Positions 2,211 to 19,097 of a stretch of 23,880 bases of DNA are shown here, piece by piece. The notes under the pieces were generated by a model, which was not told the origin of the DNA, did not search any database, and saw only the letters and a program-made list of their open reading frames with translations. Each line of letters starts with the position of its first letter. The first letter of the stretch is position 1. Source of the stretch: a virus; the IMG/VR virus record IMGVR_UViG_3300030106_003224, positions 1 through 23,880 of that record; one strand, given 5' to 3'. The position numbers and the translations under genes are program-made.

Positions 2211-2519
2211 ATGAATATTATTGTTCCTAATTTTAAACGCTACTCAGATGGCGAGATTGATCGTGCCTTTATGAAGGAGATCAAGACTGGTTTTAAACTA
2301 GAGAAAGAAACAGAACATAAAAGAGTTCAACAAGCAGCAAAGGAATCTAAAGAACTAAAAGGTAAGACGCATCCAGTTCTTGGTAAGCCAGTTGCTACAA
2401 TACCCGCAAGAGAGTTTTTTAGACTCACGAATAAGTACGGTCATGAGACTGTGCATTCAAAAGAATTTTTAAAGTATTACAATAAGAAGTTTCCAGAACT
2501 AAGCCCAAATAAAGCATAA
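2211..2519 (+). CDS. Conserved-type small phage protein, unknown function
   Basis: The product has 102 residues, is basic (many K/R) and helical, with a C-terminal segment 'IPAREFFRLTNKYGHETVHS' that looks structured and an ending '...ELSPNKA'. I recall similar small proteins between capsid and connector genes in other aquatic phages, but cannot name a function. The start at 2211 directly abuts the upstream terminator and has no SD. An internal ATG at 2271 is followed, not preceded, by an AAGGAG, so it does not help. The stop overlaps the next start as TAATG, pointing to translational coupling with the adaptor-like gene. Confidence 0.6.
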   Translation: MNIIVPNFKRYSDGEIDRAFMKEIKTGFKLEKETEHKRVQQAAKESKELKGKTHPVLGKPVATIPAREFFRLTNKYGHETVHSKEFLKYYNKKFPELSPNKA

Positions 2520-3575: not shown

Positions 3576-3836
3576 ATGGCAAGTTCAAGAAATAACGCAC
3601 TAGAGTTTAGCTCCGCAGGTTCTATAGTTATTAATGCTGGTGACGGTGCGACTACTGGCACGTTTGGGGCTATCCAGTTTTTAAAAGATTCTGAAATAGA
3701 CGAGGTTATTTCTACCAATGTAACAAATGCGTCTGACCTTCAAACAACTTTTGGAGCAGGTACAATTATATATGGTAACTTTACTTCTGTGACAGTAACT
3801 GGTGCTGGCAGCTTAGTGCAACTACACAAGGTCTAA
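3576..3836 (+). CDS. Small beta-rich virion protein, tandem paralogue A
   Basis: The 86-residue product has the pattern 'GTFGAIQFLKDS...GAGTIIYGNFTSVTV.GAGSLVQLHKV'. I recognise this as a frequent small protein of aquatic phage structural modules (general form: FGAIQ, then a variable middle, then aGT.IYG.FTS), but no function is firmly known; head decoration or neck/fibre attachment are the usual guesses. Its neighbour at 3897 is a close paralogue. The first ~20 codons and last ~8 codons are almost identical at DNA level while residues ~39-60 differ strongly. It starts directly behind the extended -10 element, without SD. Confidence 0.65.
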   Translation: MASSRNNALEFSSAGSIVINAGDGATTGTFGAIQFLKDSEIDEVISTNVTNASDLQTTFGAGTIIYGNFTSVTVTGAGSLVQLHKV

Positions 3837-3896: not shown

Positions 3897-4157
3897 ATGG
3901 CAAGTTCAAGAAACAACGCACTGGAGTTTAGCTCCGCAGGTTCTATAGTTATTAATGCAGCTGACGGTGCAACCGCCGGTACGTTTGGAGCTATTCAGTT
4001 CCTAAAGGATTCAACTCTCTCTGCACTAACAGCTACAAATGTAGAAAATTCTGCCGACCTCCTTACATCCTTTGGAGCAGGTACAATTATATATGGCAAC
4101 TTTACTAGTGTAACCGTAAGCGGTGCTGGTAGCTTAGTGCAACTACACAAGGTCTAG
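3897..4157 (+). CDS. Small beta-rich virion protein, tandem paralogue B
   Basis: The product has 86 residues, the same length as its upstream twin, with identical N-terminal 20 residues and identical C-terminal 'GSLVQLHKV'. The middle differs (DSTLSALTATNVENSADLLTS against DSEIDEVISTNVTNASDLQTT). A recent duplication followed by divergence or selection of the middle is the simplest reading. The 60-base spacer before it is AT-rich; AAGG (3881-3884) lies somewhat far from the ATG, and TATAAT at 3890-3895 almost touches it. The stop is followed by the lectin-like gene after one base. Function is unknown but certainly shared with copy A. Confidence 0.65.
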   Translation: MASSRNNALEFSSAGSIVINAADGATAGTFGAIQFLKDSTLSALTATNVENSADLLTSFGAGTIIYGNFTSVTVSGAGSLVQLHKV

Positions 4158-5305: not shown

Positions 5306-5461
5306 ATGGATACTATGCTTAGAGGAACTTTGGGATCAACTGGATTCTTTGCCTGTATTGGCTTACAAAGTATTAATAGTGTAGTTAGCTTGATTGTTGG
5401 TATAATGACCTTTGTTTTCTTAGGTTTATCTATTTATAAACTGCTAAAGGAAATCAAATGA
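5306..5461 (+). CDS. 51-residue single-pass membrane protein (holin-like candidate)
   Basis: ATG at 5306 has a GGAGA at 5292-5296 in the end of the upstream gene, and the reading frame gives 51 residues: a short polar N-terminus, a long hydrophobic stretch (from about 'TGFFACIGLQ' through 'VSLIVGIMTFVFLGLSIY') and a basic tail 'KLLKEIK'. The stop overlaps the next start as ATGA. Size and topology (one or two helices, positive C-terminus) suit a holin or antiholin, and the next gene is another membrane protein. The assignment rests on topology and location only. Confidence 0.6.
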   Translation: MDTMLRGTLGSTGFFACIGLQSINSVVSLIVGIMTFVFLGLSIYKLLKEIK

Positions 5462-5862
5462 CCACCGAACTTATAGCTATGCTGGGTGGGGGCGCGTCTG
5501 GTTTTCTGTTTAAGCTGATCGGCACAATGGTTACTGCTCAACAGAACAATATTGCAAATTTACTAAAGAAGCAAAAAGCGTCTGACGAAAGTGCCAACGC
5601 CGCAGCTAAACGTATAGGAGACGGTGGTGTTTGGGTACGAAGGGTAATAGTAGTAACAGTTTTATTTGGTGTAATTATAGCTCCTTTTATCCTAGCTCAC
5701 AGCAATGAGGGGGTAACAGTAGCCAAAGAGTATAGTAAGTTTTTTGGTTTTGTAAAAGGCACAACTTATCAAACCCTACATGGGTATGTTATACTACCAG
5801 AGATACGCCAAACCGTTCTTGCTATCGTAGGTTTCTACTTTGGCTCATCATCAGTTAAATAA
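5458..5862 (+). CDS. Phage membrane protein, probable holin-type
   Basis: The product has 134 residues. It has a glycine-rich N-terminus (IAMLGGGASGFLFKLIGTM), a polar helix with 'QQNNIANLLKKQKASDESANAAAKR', then 'WVRRVIVVTVLFGVIIAPFILA' (~61-82), a strong membrane helix, and a C-terminal hydrophobic 'ILPEIRQTVLAIVGFYFGSSSVK'. I recognise this architecture (helix, WVRR, APFI, LAIVGFYFG) from proteins often annotated as holins in aquatic phages. AAGGAAA at 5446-5452 is a good RBS. It overlaps the upstream membrane peptide by 4 bases. No endolysin was found nearby, so the lysis role is plausible but unproven. Confidence 0.6.
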   Translation: MTTELIAMLGGGASGFLFKLIGTMVTAQQNNIANLLKKQKASDESANAAAKRIGDGGVWVRRVIVVTVLFGVIIAPFILAHSNEGVTVAKEYSKFFGFVKGTTYQTLHGYVILPEIRQTVLAIVGFYFGSSSVK

Positions 5863-11141: not shown

Positions 11142-12836
11142 ATGGACGAAGAAGAAGAGCTAGAAAACACCCTTATCGGACAAGAGGAAGAAGCACCTGC
11201 TGTGAATACGGGGGATGCCCTAATAGGTGCTGGGCAACCAATGTTTACCGCAGATTCTAATGTAGTTGCATCAGTTCCTGGCATTGAAAACATTAGGAAT
11301 CCTGGTGCGTTTAACCTGAGGACTGAAGATTTAGGAAACGGCACTTCTCAAATTTCTTCATTCCCAGATTTTACGGGAGTAGGTGTATCTTTAAGTCCTT
11401 TTGTAAAAGGAGCTTTAGATGCTTTTAAAAAAGGGATTACTCAACCTCAATTTGGAATTAGGGGGTTTGATCCAAGGCAAAATCCTTATCAGGATACAAT
11501 CTCCGCGCAAGCCCCTCCAGAGGAAACACAAACTCCGTCAACATCAGCGCCAGCAACACAATTCTTAACACCTGATCCATTGGTTCTTCCTTCAGAAACT
11601 ATTGGTCAAACTCCATCGGTAAATCTTTTTTCTGCAGAAAATTCAACACAGGTTAATCCAATGATGCAGCCGTTAACTCAAGATCAATTAAACGCTATCC
11701 CGGCCCCTCTTCCGCAGGGAGTGCAAAGGGGATCACCTCAGGCTAATTTTTTAAACACTTTAAGAGAGTCTGATAATAACTTGACCGAACAACAAATTGC
11801 TCAATTCCGTCAGGATGCTCAAGATATGGGAACTACATTTGATCCCGTAACTGGATTTAGCCGTGACCCATTTTTAAGTCGAGAAGCAAGTAGGACATCC
11901 ACACTAATGCCTGGTCAAACCCTATCTCAGTTTATTCGCAACGAGGATGCTCCAGAGCAACGCACGGAGCAGTTTGTTGACCCTCAAGGTCGTCTGCGTC
12001 GTAGGTTAACACCACAGGCATCCGCACTTCAAGGATTTGCTCCAGGGGTGCAACCACTGGCATCTGAGTTTACTGACTTTGAACAAGCAAGTCTAGAAAG
12101 ACAACAAAGAATCGGTGGCACTGGAAGTTTTGCTGGTGACAGTGCAGCACGTGAAGCTAGGATCGCAGAAAGAGATAGGCTACCAGGTGAAACTCAAACA
12201 GAAAGAGATACTCGTATAGCACGAAGTAGAACTACTGGTGGACAAACAGAGGGTATATCCTTTGATGAAGCAAGGCGTAGAGCAGAGGGTCAACTCGCCG
12301 CACGGGGAGTAACAAATCCACCCGTATCTCAGGTCAATGCTTTAGCTACAAGCATACAGGCTGCGGAGCCAGAACGTCTAGCAGAATTAAAAATTAAGAG
12401 AGCTAAGGATGCTGCTGAACTAGCTAAGGATGCTGCTAAACTTAGGGATGAAGAAGCCAAGAAGGACTTCAAGCCGCAAGTAGTTGAAATAGGTGGTCAA
12501 AAACTCATACAACTTTCTCCAAATTATTATCAACCAGTTCGTCCAGAACCTACAGAAGAAGAGCCGTTTGTGCCAAGAGTATTGGAGGAAGGTGGCTTTA
12601 CTTACTATGAGGTTGCTCCAAATCGTTTTGAACGCCAGCCAAAAGATACAGCCTCTACTACTGAAGAAACAAGTGAATTGATTCCCATGGACGGTGAAGC
12701 CCCTGTTGTAACTGAGACTACCCCCACAGTTCCTAATAATATAAAGGATTATCCAAGCGTAGAAGCCGCTGAAGCAGCAAATTTAGCCCCAGGAACTAGA
12801 ATAACCGTTCAAGGCAAACCTGCAATAATTGAATAA
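11142..12836 (+). CDS. Large proline/glutamine-rich virion-type protein
   Basis: The product has 564 residues. The N-terminus is very acidic (MDEEEELENTLIGQEEEAP); residues ~110-420 are rich in Q, P, T, S and R with 'QFIRNEDAPEQR', 'FDEARRRAEGQLAARG' and other charged helices; ~415-450 is an A/K/D-rich helix with a short repeat (KDAAELAKDAAKLRD); the C-terminal ~110 residues have 'VVEIGGQKLIQLSPNYY' and 'TRITVQGKPAIIE' strands. It appears mostly disordered with helical islands, typical of phage internal or tail-tip proteins encoded next to the ejection protein. The stop overlaps the next ATG (TAATG). No known enzyme motif is seen. Confidence 0.5.
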   Translation: MDEEEELENTLIGQEEEAPAVNTGDALIGAGQPMFTADSNVVASVPGIENIRNPGAFNLRTEDLGNGTSQISSFPDFTGVGVSLSPFVKGALDAFKKGITQPQFGIRGFDPRQNPYQDTISAQAPPEETQTPSTSAPATQFLTPDPLVLPSETIGQTPSVNLFSAENSTQVNPMMQPLTQDQLNAIPAPLPQGVQRGSPQANFLNTLRESDNNLTEQQIAQFRQDAQDMGTTFDPVTGFSRDPFLSREASRTSTLMPGQTLSQFIRNEDAPEQRTEQFVDPQGRLRRRLTPQASALQGFAPGVQPLASEFTDFEQASLERQQRIGGTGSFAGDSAAREARIAERDRLPGETQTERDTRIARSRTTGGQTEGISFDEARRRAEGQLAARGVTNPPVSQVNALATSIQAAEPERLAELKIKRAKDAAELAKDAAKLRDEEAKKDFKPQVVEIGGQKLIQLSPNYYQPVRPEPTEEEPFVPRVLEEGGFTYYEVAPNRFERQPKDTASTTEETSELIPMDGEAPVVTETTPTVPNNIKDYPSVEAAEAANLAPGTRITVQGKPAIIE

Positions 12837-15800
12837 TGGCAGTTCGATTTTTAGAGGAAGAACCTATCCAACCAAAGGTAAGATTTTTAGAGGAAGAACC
12901 TAAAAAGAGCAGGGTAAAATTCTTAGAAGAAGACCCTACCGTTGGTGAAATAGGCACTGGACTAGCCGCTGAGGTTGCTATAGGAGAAGGAGCAAAGTAT
13001 ACAGGTACTCTTGCCGGGGCTTCTATAGCTGGACCAGCAGGTGCGCTTGGTGGCTACATTGTAGGTGGTATTAGTGGTGGTATCACAGGAAGTATAGCTG
13101 CACAAAGAATTGAAGGCAGAGACGATATATCTTGGGGTCGTGTAGTTGCTGATTCCCTAATAAACTTGATTCCTGGTGGACTAGGAAAGGCTGGAAAAGG
13201 AGCAAAGATAATACCTAAACTAGCCAAGGGAGGAGCCATTAGAGGCACAGAGGGTGCTGTTATAGCAACAGTAGGAGGTCAAGTAGAGAAGGGTATAGAA
13301 GAGGGAGAACTACTGACTCTAGACGAAGTAGCCACACTCGCTGGAACAGGTGCTGCGCTAGGCTTAGGACTAGGTGCTTCTGGAGAAGTCTTGAAGAAGT
13401 CTTACAGCAAGTTTGCAGGTAAAAGTGACAACTTTCTCAACAAGGCTTACAATGATGGTGATCCAGATGCTACCGCGCTAGTTGAGTCTATTGCTGGAGA
13501 AAATCCAACAGGTCGAGGAGAGCGAAACTTCAAAATGTTGGGGGCAAAGTTATCACCTGCTACTACACTAGGTCCACGAGTTAATGAAGAAACAAATGCG
13601 GCAATAGCAAAGGCTAGGGCTAGATTGGATACAGCTTCAACTGTTAGGAATCAAATCAATCAACAGACTAAGGATTTTACTCAAGAGCAAAGAGATCGTT
13701 TAGATGATTACATATTCAATAGGACTAGCCAGATACCAGAAGAGGCACAAGGGCTGAAAAGCGTTCTTGATGATGCTAGAAGCCAGATTGATGAGTATCA
13801 GAACACAATACTCAATCTATACAAAGAGGGTCGCATCGAATTAAACGACTATGTGGCTAATAAGATACAGAAGAGTGTTAATTCAAAGGATTATTTTACA
13901 AGGGAATATAGGTTCTACGAAGACCCTAGTTATGTGCCAAGTCCTAAGGCAACTAGCGAACTAAGAAGTAGATTATCCAGAGATGGAATGGACGATGAGT
14001 CTATTGATGTATTCATTCGTGGCTTAGACGAAAACAGATACAATGCCGTTGAACTAATGAACCATATTGCTGGTGCTACTAGTGGTAGCAAGCGAGTGTT
14101 TAGAAAACGTAAACTAGACGAATCCCCAGAGTTACGGAAATATTTAGGTGAATACGAAGAAGCTGGTGAGCGTATGTTTGGAACTCTTTCAAGGCTAGGT
14201 AAAATAGCCGCACAAGAGGAGGCGAATAAATCTATCACAGAGCAGATAGTAAAAAATAATCTAGGTCGTGTAGTTCGATCTGCGTCTGAGGACACAGGAG
14301 ATTTGGTTCCCCTTTTCATACGGGGCAGACAGCAAACCGTTGGAGACTCTTTGGTTGTAAGAAACAAGAGAGTAAATAAATATGAAGCACCAGATGGCAA
14401 TAGGTTTGATACAATCAAGGAAGCCACTGACGCGGGGTTTAACAAGCAACAACTCAAGAAGATCAATAGGCAAGCCATAAAGGTTCGCAGACCAGGGCAA
14501 GCAGTTTATGTTCCTAGAGAGGTAAATGAAGCCCTAGATCAATACTTTTCAACTGGTAGCCAGAGAGATGGAACTTCTATGATGCAATCTGTCTTAGCTA
14601 AGGTTTTGTCTACCACAACCGCAGGGGCTAAGTTTGTCAGAGTGCCTCTAAATGCTGCATCTTATCCAGTTCAGTTTGTTGGTAATGCTGTCATGGTAGC
14701 AGGGCAAGGTATGAATCCATTCAATGGGTGGAGACGCGGCTTTGGTATTGCGCTAAACGAAGTAAACAAAAAGGGCATAACAAAAGGTAAATACTCAATC
14801 AAGGAGATCAATCGACTGAAGGAGTTAGACCTAGTAGACCAAGGCGTTGTAGCCGGTGATATAAGAGACGGGTTTAAGAATGGAGTTCTACCTAAGCCTT
14901 TTAGCAAGTTAACAGATTACTTTGGAAAGGCGTATAATGTTTTTGATACCGCACAACGTATATCTGTGTTTGAGAACTACAAAGGTTTTCTTAAAAGGAA
15001 TATCCCCGAAGATCAGTATAGTAAACTAACAACTAAGCAAGTAGAAGATATAGCTGCCTTCTTAACAAACTCTACATACCAGAACTACGGACGAATCAAC
15101 AAGAACCTAAGAACTCTATCTCGATACGGTATACTGAACGAGTTTGCTGCCTTCAATCTTGAGCAGATGAGAACAATATACAACCAAGGCCGTATGGCTA
15201 AGAAGATGATAGATGGTTCGTTCTCTGATGAAATGGCAAGGACATACGGAATAACTCTGAGCAAAGATGCTATGAGAACCGAAGGTCTTAAACGTGTTGC
15301 GGCACTATCAAGTGTATTGGCTCTTGGTTCAGCAGGGGTATCACAACTTAATAAGGCGGGTGGCGTAAACGACGAGGATGAAAAGTTTATTAGAGATTTT
15401 GGTCTAGCCCGTTGGGAAAGAGATCAAGGCTTACACATTCGCAGGGACGGAAACAAATTATCTTTGGCAAACCTAAGTTATCAGATACCGTCCATTGAAC
15501 TAACATCTGTTCTTGATGCTGCTCTGCGGGGCGATGATTTTCAATCGGCGGCTGGAGACGCTATCGAGGCTGCTTGGAGCAAGTTTGGTGGAGACTTAAC
15601 TATCAATCTGAAGAATCTAGTTGCTTCAGTAAGCAACACAGATTTAAACACAGGTAAGGCTATTAGCAATGAGATGGGTCTAAGGAAGGCTCTAGGTTTG
15701 ATAGAGTATTACTTTGCTGAAAACTTTACACCAGGAACAGTTAGAGACTTAAAGTCTTTGGATGACAGAACTTCCATAGAGAACACGCTAAGATATACAC

Positions 15801-16318
15801 TGGGTTATCGCTCAAGAAACACAACCATTGACGAGGGCATTGGATATAAACTTAGAAGCTTAGGTAAATCACTGAAGAACATACGATCTGCATACGCTGG
15901 CGATACTAGTAGAATGGATTCCGTAGAGGATGCTTATAATAAAAACAACGCAGTCTACCGCAGGAACATGGAGGTTCTTGTGAACTTTGCCAATGAAGCC
16001 AAGGCTTTTGGTTCAAGGAACCCAGACTCTGGCCTGACCGAAGAAAAGATAAGTTCTCTGATGAAGAAGGCTGGGCTAAACGTAAGCCAAGTCAATGATG
16101 CAATGTCTGGCAATGTAACAGATATGCCAATATTCGTATCCTTGGGCGAACGAAAGAAAGAAGATAAGTTAAGAAGATACGTTGAACTTGGAGAAAGAAT
16201 GAGTCCACGAACTCTTACAATAATGCTTCAAAGAGACTTCGATGATAAAAAGATCAAGCGAGCAGACATACAGAGAATCATGAGGACTATAGAGGCTAGA
16301 AAAGCCTTCTCTCAATAA
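12836..16318 (+). CDS. Large internal virion / DNA-ejection-type protein
   Basis: The product has 1160 residues. The N-terminus has three repeats of V-R/K-F-L-E-E-E/D-P at residues 3-10, 15-22 and 27-34. Residues ~37-190 are glycine/alanine-rich hydrophobic helices (AGASIAGPAGALGGYIVGGI, LINLIPGGLGKAGKGAK, GTGAALGLGLGASGE), suited to inserting into membranes. The remaining ~950 residues are charged, helical and without transglycosylase or peptidase motifs that I can see. Size, position as last late gene and membrane-active segments fit podovirus internal proteins (T7 gp15/gp16-like role) that leave the capsid with DNA and bridge the envelope. Family homology is not claimed. Confidence 0.6.
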   Translation: MAVRFLEEEPIQPKVRFLEEEPKKSRVKFLEEDPTVGEIGTGLAAEVAIGEGAKYTGTLAGASIAGPAGALGGYIVGGISGGITGSIAAQRIEGRDDISWGRVVADSLINLIPGGLGKAGKGAKIIPKLAKGGAIRGTEGAVIATVGGQVEKGIEEGELLTLDEVATLAGTGAALGLGLGASGEVLKKSYSKFAGKSDNFLNKAYNDGDPDATALVESIAGENPTGRGERNFKMLGAKLSPATTLGPRVNEETNAAIAKARARLDTASTVRNQINQQTKDFTQEQRDRLDDYIFNRTSQIPEEAQGLKSVLDDARSQIDEYQNTILNLYKEGRIELNDYVANKIQKSVNSKDYFTREYRFYEDPSYVPSPKATSELRSRLSRDGMDDESIDVFIRGLDENRYNAVELMNHIAGATSGSKRVFRKRKLDESPELRKYLGEYEEAGERMFGTLSRLGKIAAQEEANKSITEQIVKNNLGRVVRSASEDTGDLVPLFIRGRQQTVGDSLVVRNKRVNKYEAPDGNRFDTIKEATDAGFNKQQLKKINRQAIKVRRPGQAVYVPREVNEALDQYFSTGSQRDGTSMMQSVLAKVLSTTTAGAKFVRVPLNAASYPVQFVGNAVMVAGQGMNPFNGWRRGFGIALNEVNKKGITKGKYSIKEINRLKELDLVDQGVVAGDIRDGFKNGVLPKPFSKLTDYFGKAYNVFDTAQRISVFENYKGFLKRNIPEDQYSKLTTKQVEDIAAFLTNSTYQNYGRINKNLRTLSRYGILNEFAAFNLEQMRTIYNQGRMAKKMIDGSFSDEMARTYGITLSKDAMRTEGLKRVAALSSVLALGSAGVSQLNKAGGVNDEDEKFIRDFGLARWERDQGLHIRRDGNKLSLANLSYQIPSIELTSVLDAALRGDDFQSAAGDAIEAAWSKFGGDLTINLKNLVASVSNTDLNTGKAISNEMGLRKALGLIEYYFAENFTPGTVRDLKSLDDRTSIENTLRYTLGYRSRNTTIDEGIGYKLRSLGKSLKNIRSAYAGDTSRMDSVEDAYNKNNAVYRRNMEVLVNFANEAKAFGSRNPDSGLTEEKISSLMKKAGLNVSQVNDAMSGNVTDMPIFVSLGERKKEDKLRRYVELGERMSPRTLTIMLQRDFDDKKIKRADIQRIMRTIEARKAFSQ

Positions 16319-16319
16319 A

Positions 16320-16385
16320 TGGTGGAGATGGGAGGAGTTGAACCCCCGTCTCTGGCACTAGCCAGATCGATAACCCTGCATCCCC
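16320..16385 (-). ncRNA. tRNA-like structure resembling the tmRNA tRNA-like domain
   Basis: On the - strand, 66 nt begin GGGGATG and end CATCTCC-A-CCA. The ends pair as a 7-bp acceptor stem (6 Watson-Crick, one G-U) with discriminator A and an encoded CCA. A 5-bp T stem with one G-U closes a canonical TTCAACT loop. The segment after the acceptor (CAGGGTTATCGA) resembles the tmRNA D-loop (consensus near GG.TTCGA, with one extra base) and has no D stem. In place of anticodon arm or tmRNA body is a 6-bp hairpin, TCTGGC-TAGT-GCCAGA. No usable anticodon loop exists. It lies in the 3' region of the replication transcript, right where the two gene blocks converge. A degenerate tRNA or an attachment-site remnant are alternatives. 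Confidence 0.55.
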
Positions 16386-16400
16386 TTGAAGTAAAATGGT

Positions 16401-16477
16401 GTCAGCGTCGTGGTTGGAAGGCTGGCTGACGGCAACCCTATATAGGCAGTAAAGAACCTTTCCGGAGCACTCACGAC
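16401..16477 (-). other. Possible H-type pseudoknot upstream of the tRNA-like structure
   Basis: On the - strand, GTCGTG (16477-16472) can pair with CACGAC (16412-16407), and GTCAGC (16430-16425) with GCTGAC (16406-16401). The order of the four arms (stem 1 left, stem 2 left, stem 1 right, stem 2 right) is that of a pseudoknot, and the two right arms are directly adjacent, allowing coaxial stacking. Each stem has 6 Watson-Crick pairs. The 41-nt first loop is long. tmRNAs also combine pseudoknots with a tRNA-like domain, but no tag reading frame is seen here. Confidence 0.35.
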
Positions 16478-16507
16478 TTACTCTTTGTGTACTTATGAAC
16501 AACAAAG

Positions 16508-16705
16508 TTATTCTCGCTCTTCTGCGTTAGATAAGAGACGATGTTGAAGCATATCAATCTTCTTTTTTAAATTTTCTATATCTTGGTTTAGTCTTTCATT
16601 CTGGTTAGTCAGAGCCTCGCATGATTTAGTCATAGCATCTAAGCCTTTTGCCAGAATTACTTCAGAGTTAACATTGTATACGGATGGAGTTTTTGTTTGT
16701 TGCAT
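16508..16705 (-). CDS. 65-residue coiled-coil protein
   Basis: The product has an N-terminal 'MQQTKTPSVYNVNSEVILAK' and then a long helix with heptad-like leucines/isoleucines (LTNQNERLNQDIENLKKKIDML) ending NAEERE. A dimeric coiled coil is likely. It starts directly behind the TAA stop of the next upstream gene (no gap), so coupled expression is expected. It is the last protein gene of the replication-side block. No function is recognised. Confidence 0.55.
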   Translation of the reverse strand: MQQTKTPSVYNVNSEVILAKGLDAMTKSCEALTNQNERLNQDIENLKKKIDMLQHRLLSNAEERE

Positions 16706-17783: not shown

Positions 17784-19097
17784 TCAACTAAATCTGCCGA
17801 TGTGGTTTTGAAAGACAAACTTACCATACTGGTCTCGCTGACCTTCACGCTGCTTTGCTATATTGTATTTGATAGATATGTGTGTGCCGTGAACAGGATC
17901 ATTGTAGACAGTGGCTTCTTTCGTATCTGAGCCGTCAGGCCATAGCAAGAGAATAATGTCTGCGTCGTTTTCAATGTCTCCAGAGTCTTTCAAGTCATAT
18001 AGTGTAATACCTGTCTCTCGCTTGGCTCCCTCTCTGTTTACTTGTGCTAACAGTATAACAGGTAGGTCTAACTCCATAGCCATAAGTTTTATCTGGTGAC
18101 TAACCTCTGCGATGCCGTCATGCTTCTTTAATTTAATATTCCAAGGGACAAGTTGCAGGTAGTCTATCACAATCCATTCAATTTTATGCTTACGCTTATA
18201 CATACGAGCACGCGACCTAAGTTCATCAACATTCCTAACGTAGTGCTCTGTAAATATAGGTGCGTTCTCTACCCTGTCAGTAGCATCCCAGACTCGCTTT
18301 TGTTTCTCTTCAGACAGTACACGGTCTTGGAACTGGTTAAGGTTCACGGCAGAACAAGTCTGTATCATACGCTTTGCCAGAATCTTGGCTTGCATCTCAA
18401 AGGAGAAGTATAGACCCGGCTTACTATGTGTTACACCGTTCTGTAAGGCTATGTTTAGGGCGATACAAGTCTTACCGCAGGAGGTAGGAGCCGCAACAAC
18501 CATTACCTCTCCGTTGGCTATACCACCCGCACTAAGCTTTTCGTCTAGCTGTTTAATCCTAGTTGGTAGAGCGAAGGTATCGTAAGTCCCCTCCTCCATC
18601 TTCTTGAAGTCCTCGCGCAAAGACTCAGCGGCTACTCTAATTGACGAGTCAGTAGTGGAGTTGTTATCTAGGGTAGCGGTGACAGCCCTTTCAATGTCAG
18701 CAATGATTATGTCTGGGTCTTGGTTTTCTCTTGCTGATTCAATGGCGATGCGAGAGGTGCGAATAATCTGACGTAACTTAGACTTCTCTTTTATAATCTT
18801 GGCATAGCTTCCTATTTGCATAGAACTACTAGCCTGATTCTGTATATGCATGATGGTGCTCAGTCCACCTGCTTCTCTGTCTGTCCCTTCACGCTTTAGT
18901 AACTCATCAAGGTCGAGTTCAGAGAATTCTTGACCAGCAGAGCATAACTTAGATATAGCTTTGAAGATTATTTTGTTAGAGTTGCCGTAGAAATCGTCTG
19001 CGTTGACAATGGTGCTGATGCTATCGTAAGCAGCATTATCTAGTAGGCAACAGGCTAACAAAGCCTCTTCTGCTTCTAAGTTATGAGGTTGATCCAT
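17784..19097 (-). CDS. DnaB-type replicative helicase
   Basis: The product has 437 residues, the usual DnaB size. The N-terminal domain has 'NLEAEEALLACCLLDNAAYD' (6-25). The RecA-like domain carries Walker A APTSCGKT (203-210), Walker B WIVIDYLQL (308-316), 'LLAQVNREGAKR' (349-360), the 'LKDSGDIENDADII' segment (369-382) and a basic 'KQREGQRDQYG' (415-425) where the arginine finger lies. It should form hexamers that unwind the fork with 5'-3' polarity and may recruit primase; no primase domain is fused. The 5' end overlaps the DUF5664 gene by 17 bases. Complete, with no missing motif. Confidence 0.93.
   Translation of the reverse strand: MDQPHNLEAEEALLACCLLDNAAYDSISTIVNADDFYGNSNKIIFKAISKLCSAGQEFSELDLDELLKREGTDREAGGLSTIMHIQNQASSSMQIGSYAKIIKEKSKLRQIIRTSRIAIESARENQDPDIIIADIERAVTATLDNNSTTDSSIRVAAESLREDFKKMEEGTYDTFALPTRIKQLDEKLSAGGIANGEVMVVAAPTSCGKTCIALNIALQNGVTHSKPGLYFSFEMQAKILAKRMIQTCSAVNLNQFQDRVLSEEKQKRVWDATDRVENAPIFTEHYVRNVDELRSRARMYKRKHKIEWIVIDYLQLVPWNIKLKKHDGIAEVSHQIKLMAMELDLPVILLAQVNREGAKRETGITLYDLKDSGDIENDADIILLLWPDGSDTKEATVYNDPVHGTHISIKYNIAKQREGQRDQYGKFVFQNHIGRFS

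Follow-up and report, generated by a model that had tools for sequence, protein, structure and literature searches.

tmRNA is the bacterial ribosome-rescue RNA. The 23,880-nucleotide stretch of viral DNA analysed here (positions 1 to 23,880 of IMG/VR record IMGVR_UViG_3300030106_003224; hereafter the window) comes from a marine phage. It encodes an RNA of 66 bases in which only the tRNA-shaped end of tmRNA is reproduced. The locus raises two questions: what this RNA is, and what a phage would use it for. We determined the identity, structure, conservation, viral distribution and turnover of such RNAs, which consist of a tRNA-like domain (TLD) only, and weighed their possible functions.

The element lies on the minus strand at 16320–16385, where two gene blocks converge. 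A plus-strand gene of 1160 amino acids (12836–16318), whose product is probably an internal virion protein as judged from its position and size, stops at 16318; from the opposite side, the minus-strand replication block extends to 16508 with its last gene, a 65-aa coiled-coil ORF (16508–16705). A preliminary description of the DNA had noted a 66-nt tRNA-like structure at this convergence point, and every structural feature that it described was seen when the sequence was read again. From 16385 to 16320, the RNA begins with the 5' strand of the acceptor stem, GGGGATG (16379–16385), in which all seven bases pair with the 3' strand CATCTCC (16324–16330); the only G-U pair of this 7-bp stem is G3:U70 (16383 and 16326). 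Then come CA and GGGTTATCGA, and the D-loop-like stretch CAGGGTTATCGA (16367–16378) has no D stem. The hairpin TCTGGC-TAGT-GCCAGA (16351–16366; 6 bp with a 4-nt loop) occupies the helix-2 position and replaces the mRNA-like body, and it is followed by GAC and the T arm GGGGG-TTCAACT-CCTCC (16331–16347; 5-bp stem, 7-nt loop). The 3' acceptor strand leads to the discriminator A73 and an encoded CCA (ACCA, 16320–16323). Elsewhere in the window, the structural block contains two near-identical tandem ORFs of 86 aa (3576–3836 and 3897–4157, plus strand).

The Rfam tmRNA model (RF00023) aligned end to end (model positions 1–374) across 16320–16385 with 43.7 bits (E 3.7e-18), slightly below its curated cut-off of 47 bits, which was exceeded by relatives L007 (47.1 bits), L002 (50.2 bits) and L140 (62.0 bits). 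A covariance model built from 36 relatives (R1), trained without any window-type sequence, scored the window RNA at 79.7 bits (E 2.4e-13) and gave no match in closely related loci that do not carry the TLD. Some results would also suit an ordinary degenerate tRNA or a chance fold: ARAGORN made no call in the window, Rfam at its curated cut-offs had no match there, and the folding energy was unremarkable (z -1.28; 23 of 200 shuffles folded equally well), with a minimum-energy fold that misdrew the T arm. Folding energy alone is no evidence here, and the case rests on homology and covariation.

Pattern scans of IMG/VR together with a helicase-anchored search yielded at least 148 distinct TLD-only RNAs in viral contigs. 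Among the matches listed, 50 sequences, including the window RNA, form a short class (63–73 nt before the last A) and 98 form a long class, mostly of 78–85 nt, with an additional internal hairpin. Fixed letters in the scan patterns were limited to GGGG and G7 of the 5' acceptor strand plus letters of the D-loop, GAC and T-loop; the D-loop GG..TCGA is thus common to all relatives by search design, and the letters around it vary. All seven acceptor pairs and all five T-stem pairs were present in 144 of the 175 distinct matches listed, the remaining 31 being mostly one-base-shifted readings of the same RNAs. In an alignment of 36 short-class sequences without a window-type member, paired cells made up 96.7%, compared with 80.5% after shuffling, and cells changed on both sides numbered 119, compared with 33.9. 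The covariation score was 0.497, against 0.171 for shuffled and at most 0.124 for slid alignments, and none of 500 shuffles reached the observed paired percentage, double-change count and covariation score. The T stem was 100% paired across the 36 relatives with both-side changes in three of its five pairs. In the middle hairpin, pairing was kept while the letters changed: in an alignment-free comparison anchored at both ends, at least five of the six pairs formed in 98% of the 50 short-class RNAs, versus 30% when strands were swapped between RNAs. Several relatives (L002, L139 and L168) have a UUCG loop.

These results identify the window RNA as the TLD of a tmRNA with the message-coding body swapped for a 6-bp hairpin. 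The preliminary description had likewise taken it for a minimal free-standing TLD of tmRNA type, and RF00023, the independent model and the compensatory changes in the acceptor, T and middle stems bear this out. A degenerate tRNA or chance fold is next to impossible; it is refuted because the covariation surpassed all 500 shuffles in score and percent paired and because a model trained without the window RNA gave it 79.7 bits. The window RNA is not filed as a full tmRNA because D-loop and T arm have a 16-nt hairpin between them, and the mRNA-like domain with its tag reading frame and pseudoknots is absent. The order GGGG..D-loop..T arm..CCA is not that of the permuted two-piece tmRNAs (RF04321, only 9.9 bits), which have the T arm and CCA ahead of the GGGG/D-loop part, and a tRNA assignment fails on the missing D stem and on a 4-nt loop where a 7-nt anticodon loop is expected. 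The window RNA agrees with the DS6A type, which is phage-borne, in standard order and composed of the TLD only. A Tymovirus tRNA-like match (20.3 bits, cut-off 40) involved the T arm and CCA alone and was rejected, and distant blastn matches in Dinoroseobacter phage DFL12phi1, phiSAJS1 and Mx1 were ordinary or other tRNAs.

A narrow short-class pattern matched 87 viral stretches. When a broader pattern was run over 257 Gb of bacterial and archaeal genomes, only five matches were obtained, none of them of the short class. One, in a Mycobacterium metagenome bin, is a TLD-only RNA (66.1 bits); by inspection, the others are a spirochaete tRNA-like fold, two degenerate Cupriavidus copies and an ordinary archaeal tRNA. 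TLD-only RNAs are therefore a broad, essentially viral class.

The same survey gave several observations on individual phages. Two cultured Streptomyces phages, pSt2308 and LuckySocke, have unannotated long-class TLD-only RNAs within their tRNA clusters (L355 801–880 and L361 801–880); in LuckySocke (OR725497) the RNA lies at about 17977–18056. A complete group I intron (L100 5277–5565, minus strand; RF00028, 82 bits), which starts at the end of a 251-aa ORF, holds a TLD-only RNA (5423–5488) inside its P5 loop. ARAGORN called unannotated permuted tmRNAs in Stenotrophomonas phage BUCTxx99 (OR529408; L004 1439–1764) and Pseudomonas phage PA_L9 (PP869205; L005 1439–1859). A 136-nt tmRNA-like RNA with the acceptor GGGCCAG/CTGGTCC in the 595-kb uncultured phage LR756511 (L360 711–846) may be a very small tmRNA.

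Integration often takes place at tmRNA genes (PMC11915505), and the preliminary description had entertained a competing idea, namely that the element is an attachment-site remnant of a host tmRNA left by integration. A tyrosine integrase was in fact present in six of 40 carrier records, these being carriers of another subtype. At the window locus, both halves of the TLD are present, the 5' half is paired, and the two covary; the window record and the tested 35-kb relatives gave no tyrosine integrase match (PF00589), and the short class was missing from the 257 Gb of cellular genomes. Because of the compensatory changes, the idea did not survive for this phage, and we regard an attachment-site origin as very improbable.

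The surroundings of the TLD were compared among close relatives. Just upstream, a conserved non-coding element (16401–16481, minus strand; GTAAGTCGTG...GCTGAC) ends 15 nt before the TLD and may form an H-type pseudoknot; a compensatory change in relatives converts GTCAGC/GCTGAC to GTTAGC/GCTAAC, and Rfam had no match for 16401–16481. All close relatives with the junction read carried this element, with or without the TLD, which was present in some only. On the helicase-gene tree, the TLD requires three gains or losses, at least two of which are forced by well-supported branches. The 1160-aa gene is swapped for unrelated alleles in relatives, homology being confined to the first 220 residues. 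With its patchy presence, the three gains or losses and the swapped neighbouring module, the TLD behaves as an optional cassette in this lineage. C75C1, the nearest named phage by capsid (65.5%), has no TLD according to the covariance model.

The position of the TLD could point to a 3'-end element of the replication transcript, comparable to the tRNA-like ends of plant viruses, in which cutting by RNase P/Z at the tRNA-like fold sets or protects the mRNA end and alanylation is incidental. The TLD is the last feature of the leftward block, directly after the conserved RNA element; no intrinsic terminator was found near it, whereas the TLD-less relatives L022 and C75C1 have a terminator-like hairpin at the TLD site. 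In L002, the stop codon of a 109-aa upstream ORF falls within the TLD at bases 8–10 (2472–2481, minus strand), so RNase P cutting would make the mRNA of that ORF nonstop. However, a processing signal would not need G3:U70, A73 and a tmRNA-type T arm every time, 30 of the 50 listed short-class copies lie between co-directional genes, away from transcript ends, and several TLD copies sit in tRNA gene surroundings. A role in 3'-end processing is conceivable at the window locus and does not explain the whole class; we consider this explanation improbable.

G3:U70 and A73 are established identity elements of alanyl-tRNA synthetase. The G-U identity pair that the preliminary description had singled out for checking is present in the window RNA, together with A73. 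Both signals were kept in all 148 TLD-only RNAs among the matches listed. G was also fixed at positions 1, 2, 4 and 7, where the partner was C except in seven long-class cases of G-U pairing at position 4; position 3 was the only always-wobble pair among the listed relatives. As GGGG was a requirement of the initial patterns, we also scanned with the acceptor left free: all 43 RNAs that had a complete acceptor showed G3:U70 and A73, and three of them start with GGGC or GGGT. An encoded CCA was present in only part of the TLD-only set. Because G3:U70 and A73 were kept in 148/148 listed RNAs and in 43/43, alanine charging is probably under selection.

How might a chargeable TLD act? The preliminary description had listed charging, a decoy role and protection of the mRNA end. 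An even prospect, in our estimate and by analogy with known molecules, is that the TLD-only RNA serves as a decoy: SmpB, EF-Tu and stalled ribosomes would be contested between it and host tmRNA. The window RNA would arise as the last part of the leftward replication transcript, be cut out by RNase P and 3' processing, receive alanine from the host alanyl-tRNA synthetase, and then associate with SmpB and EF-Tu of the host, the SmpB-TLD pair imitating a tRNA. SmpB would have to come from the host, since no SmpB gene (nor ArfA gene) was found in 40 carrier records, many of them fragments. Separately, an ORF of Pelagibacter phage HTVC106P (L006 1427–1552) carries the annotation alternative ribosome-rescue factor A. 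Acting through SmpB and stalled ribosomes, the RNA would be a dominant-negative inhibitor of host tmRNA. It could not finish tagging because it has no message to switch to, and phage proteins from broken or unfinished messages would therefore escape the degradation tag.

We favour the decoy because the TLD construct crystallised with SmpB resembles the phage RNA and because a DS6A-like molecule is reported to inhibit tmRNA. PMC4131195 and PMC11915505 describe the DS6A tmRNA as 'little more than the TLD' and report that a similar molecule strongly inhibits E. coli tmRNA, perhaps via SmpB titration and reportedly whether or not it can be charged. Perfect charging signals would thus not be needed for a pure SmpB decoy. 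Two further facts stand against a decoy: some phages benefit from trans-translation, as in the case of lambda-immP22, which plates ~10,000-fold worse without it (PMC2862035), and close relatives of the window phage do without the TLD. The conserved signals suggest that alanine matters, either by allowing stronger competition on EF-Tu and the ribosome or by letting the RNA accept nascent chains.

The second of these options corresponds to a tag-less rescue RNA, which we hold to be rather unlikely. Here, alanyl-TLD with SmpB would enter stalled ribosomes, take the nascent chain and free the ribosome, with peptidyl-tRNA hydrolase or some other factor releasing the chain, or would add several untemplated alanines. 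The perfectly conserved charging signals among the matches listed agree with such a role. In vitro, a TLD fragment together with SmpB makes poly-alanine in the absence of mRNA (Shimizu and Ueda 2006, as relayed in PMC3929946), and mitochondrial tmRNAs that have lost the tag frame are believed to help even so with incomplete messages (PMC11915505). On the other hand, inhibition is the sole in vivo effect reported for such a molecule in PMC4131195 and PMC11915505, and the literature consulted gave no case of a TLD achieving rescue on its own in vivo. A more specific proposal, to which we attach little probability, is that alanyl-TLD is a templateless rescue substrate that, with host SmpB, would supply alanine again and again to ribosomes stalled on phage messages, so that alanine tails replace the host degradation tag. 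If true, trans-translation would be rerouted, which goes beyond a mere block. The TLD-only class suggests that interference with ribosome rescue, or its rerouting, is practised by many phages. This opens the testable question of why phages fight or need trans-translation, for which natural minimal RNAs, some from cultured Streptomyces phages, are suited.

The window RNA was compared with known systems. It shares with bacterial tmRNA (RF00023) the G3:U70 acceptor, the stemless D-loop, GAC with the T arm, and CCA, but has no mRNA-like domain, no pseudoknots and no tag. The tmRNA of Methylophilales phage Melnitz (PMC9004378) also belongs to a marine phage, but is permuted with a tag-coding piece, whereas the window RNA is a single piece with its parts in standard order. 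The CDS-less plastid tmRNAs of Mallomonadaceae (~65 bp; PMC11915505) share its size and absent tag frame; they are organellar and reduced from a resident tmRNA, whereas the window RNA is viral. The T. thermophilus TLD crystallised with SmpB (PDB 2CZJ; PMC3929946), a construct of 25 + 34 residues with a UUCG loop junction, likewise has tmRNA ends joined by a short capped stem in ~60 nt; it was engineered, whereas the phage RNA is natural. A TLD-only phage tmRNA is not wholly new, given that one was described previously, in mycobacteriophage DS6A (Mao et al. 2009; Hudson et al. 2014, PMC4131195), which is, like the window RNA, phage-borne, in standard order and without a tag frame. The DS6A RNA is one sequence from one actinophage, compared here by its published description, whereas the window RNA belongs to a short class (64–73 nt) of aquatic phages with the D-loop form GGGTTATCGA. 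The current tmRNA database contains only nine standard no-CDS forms among 97,179 sequences. To these the scans add a broad, essentially viral class of TLD-only RNAs with perfectly kept alanine marks among the matches listed.
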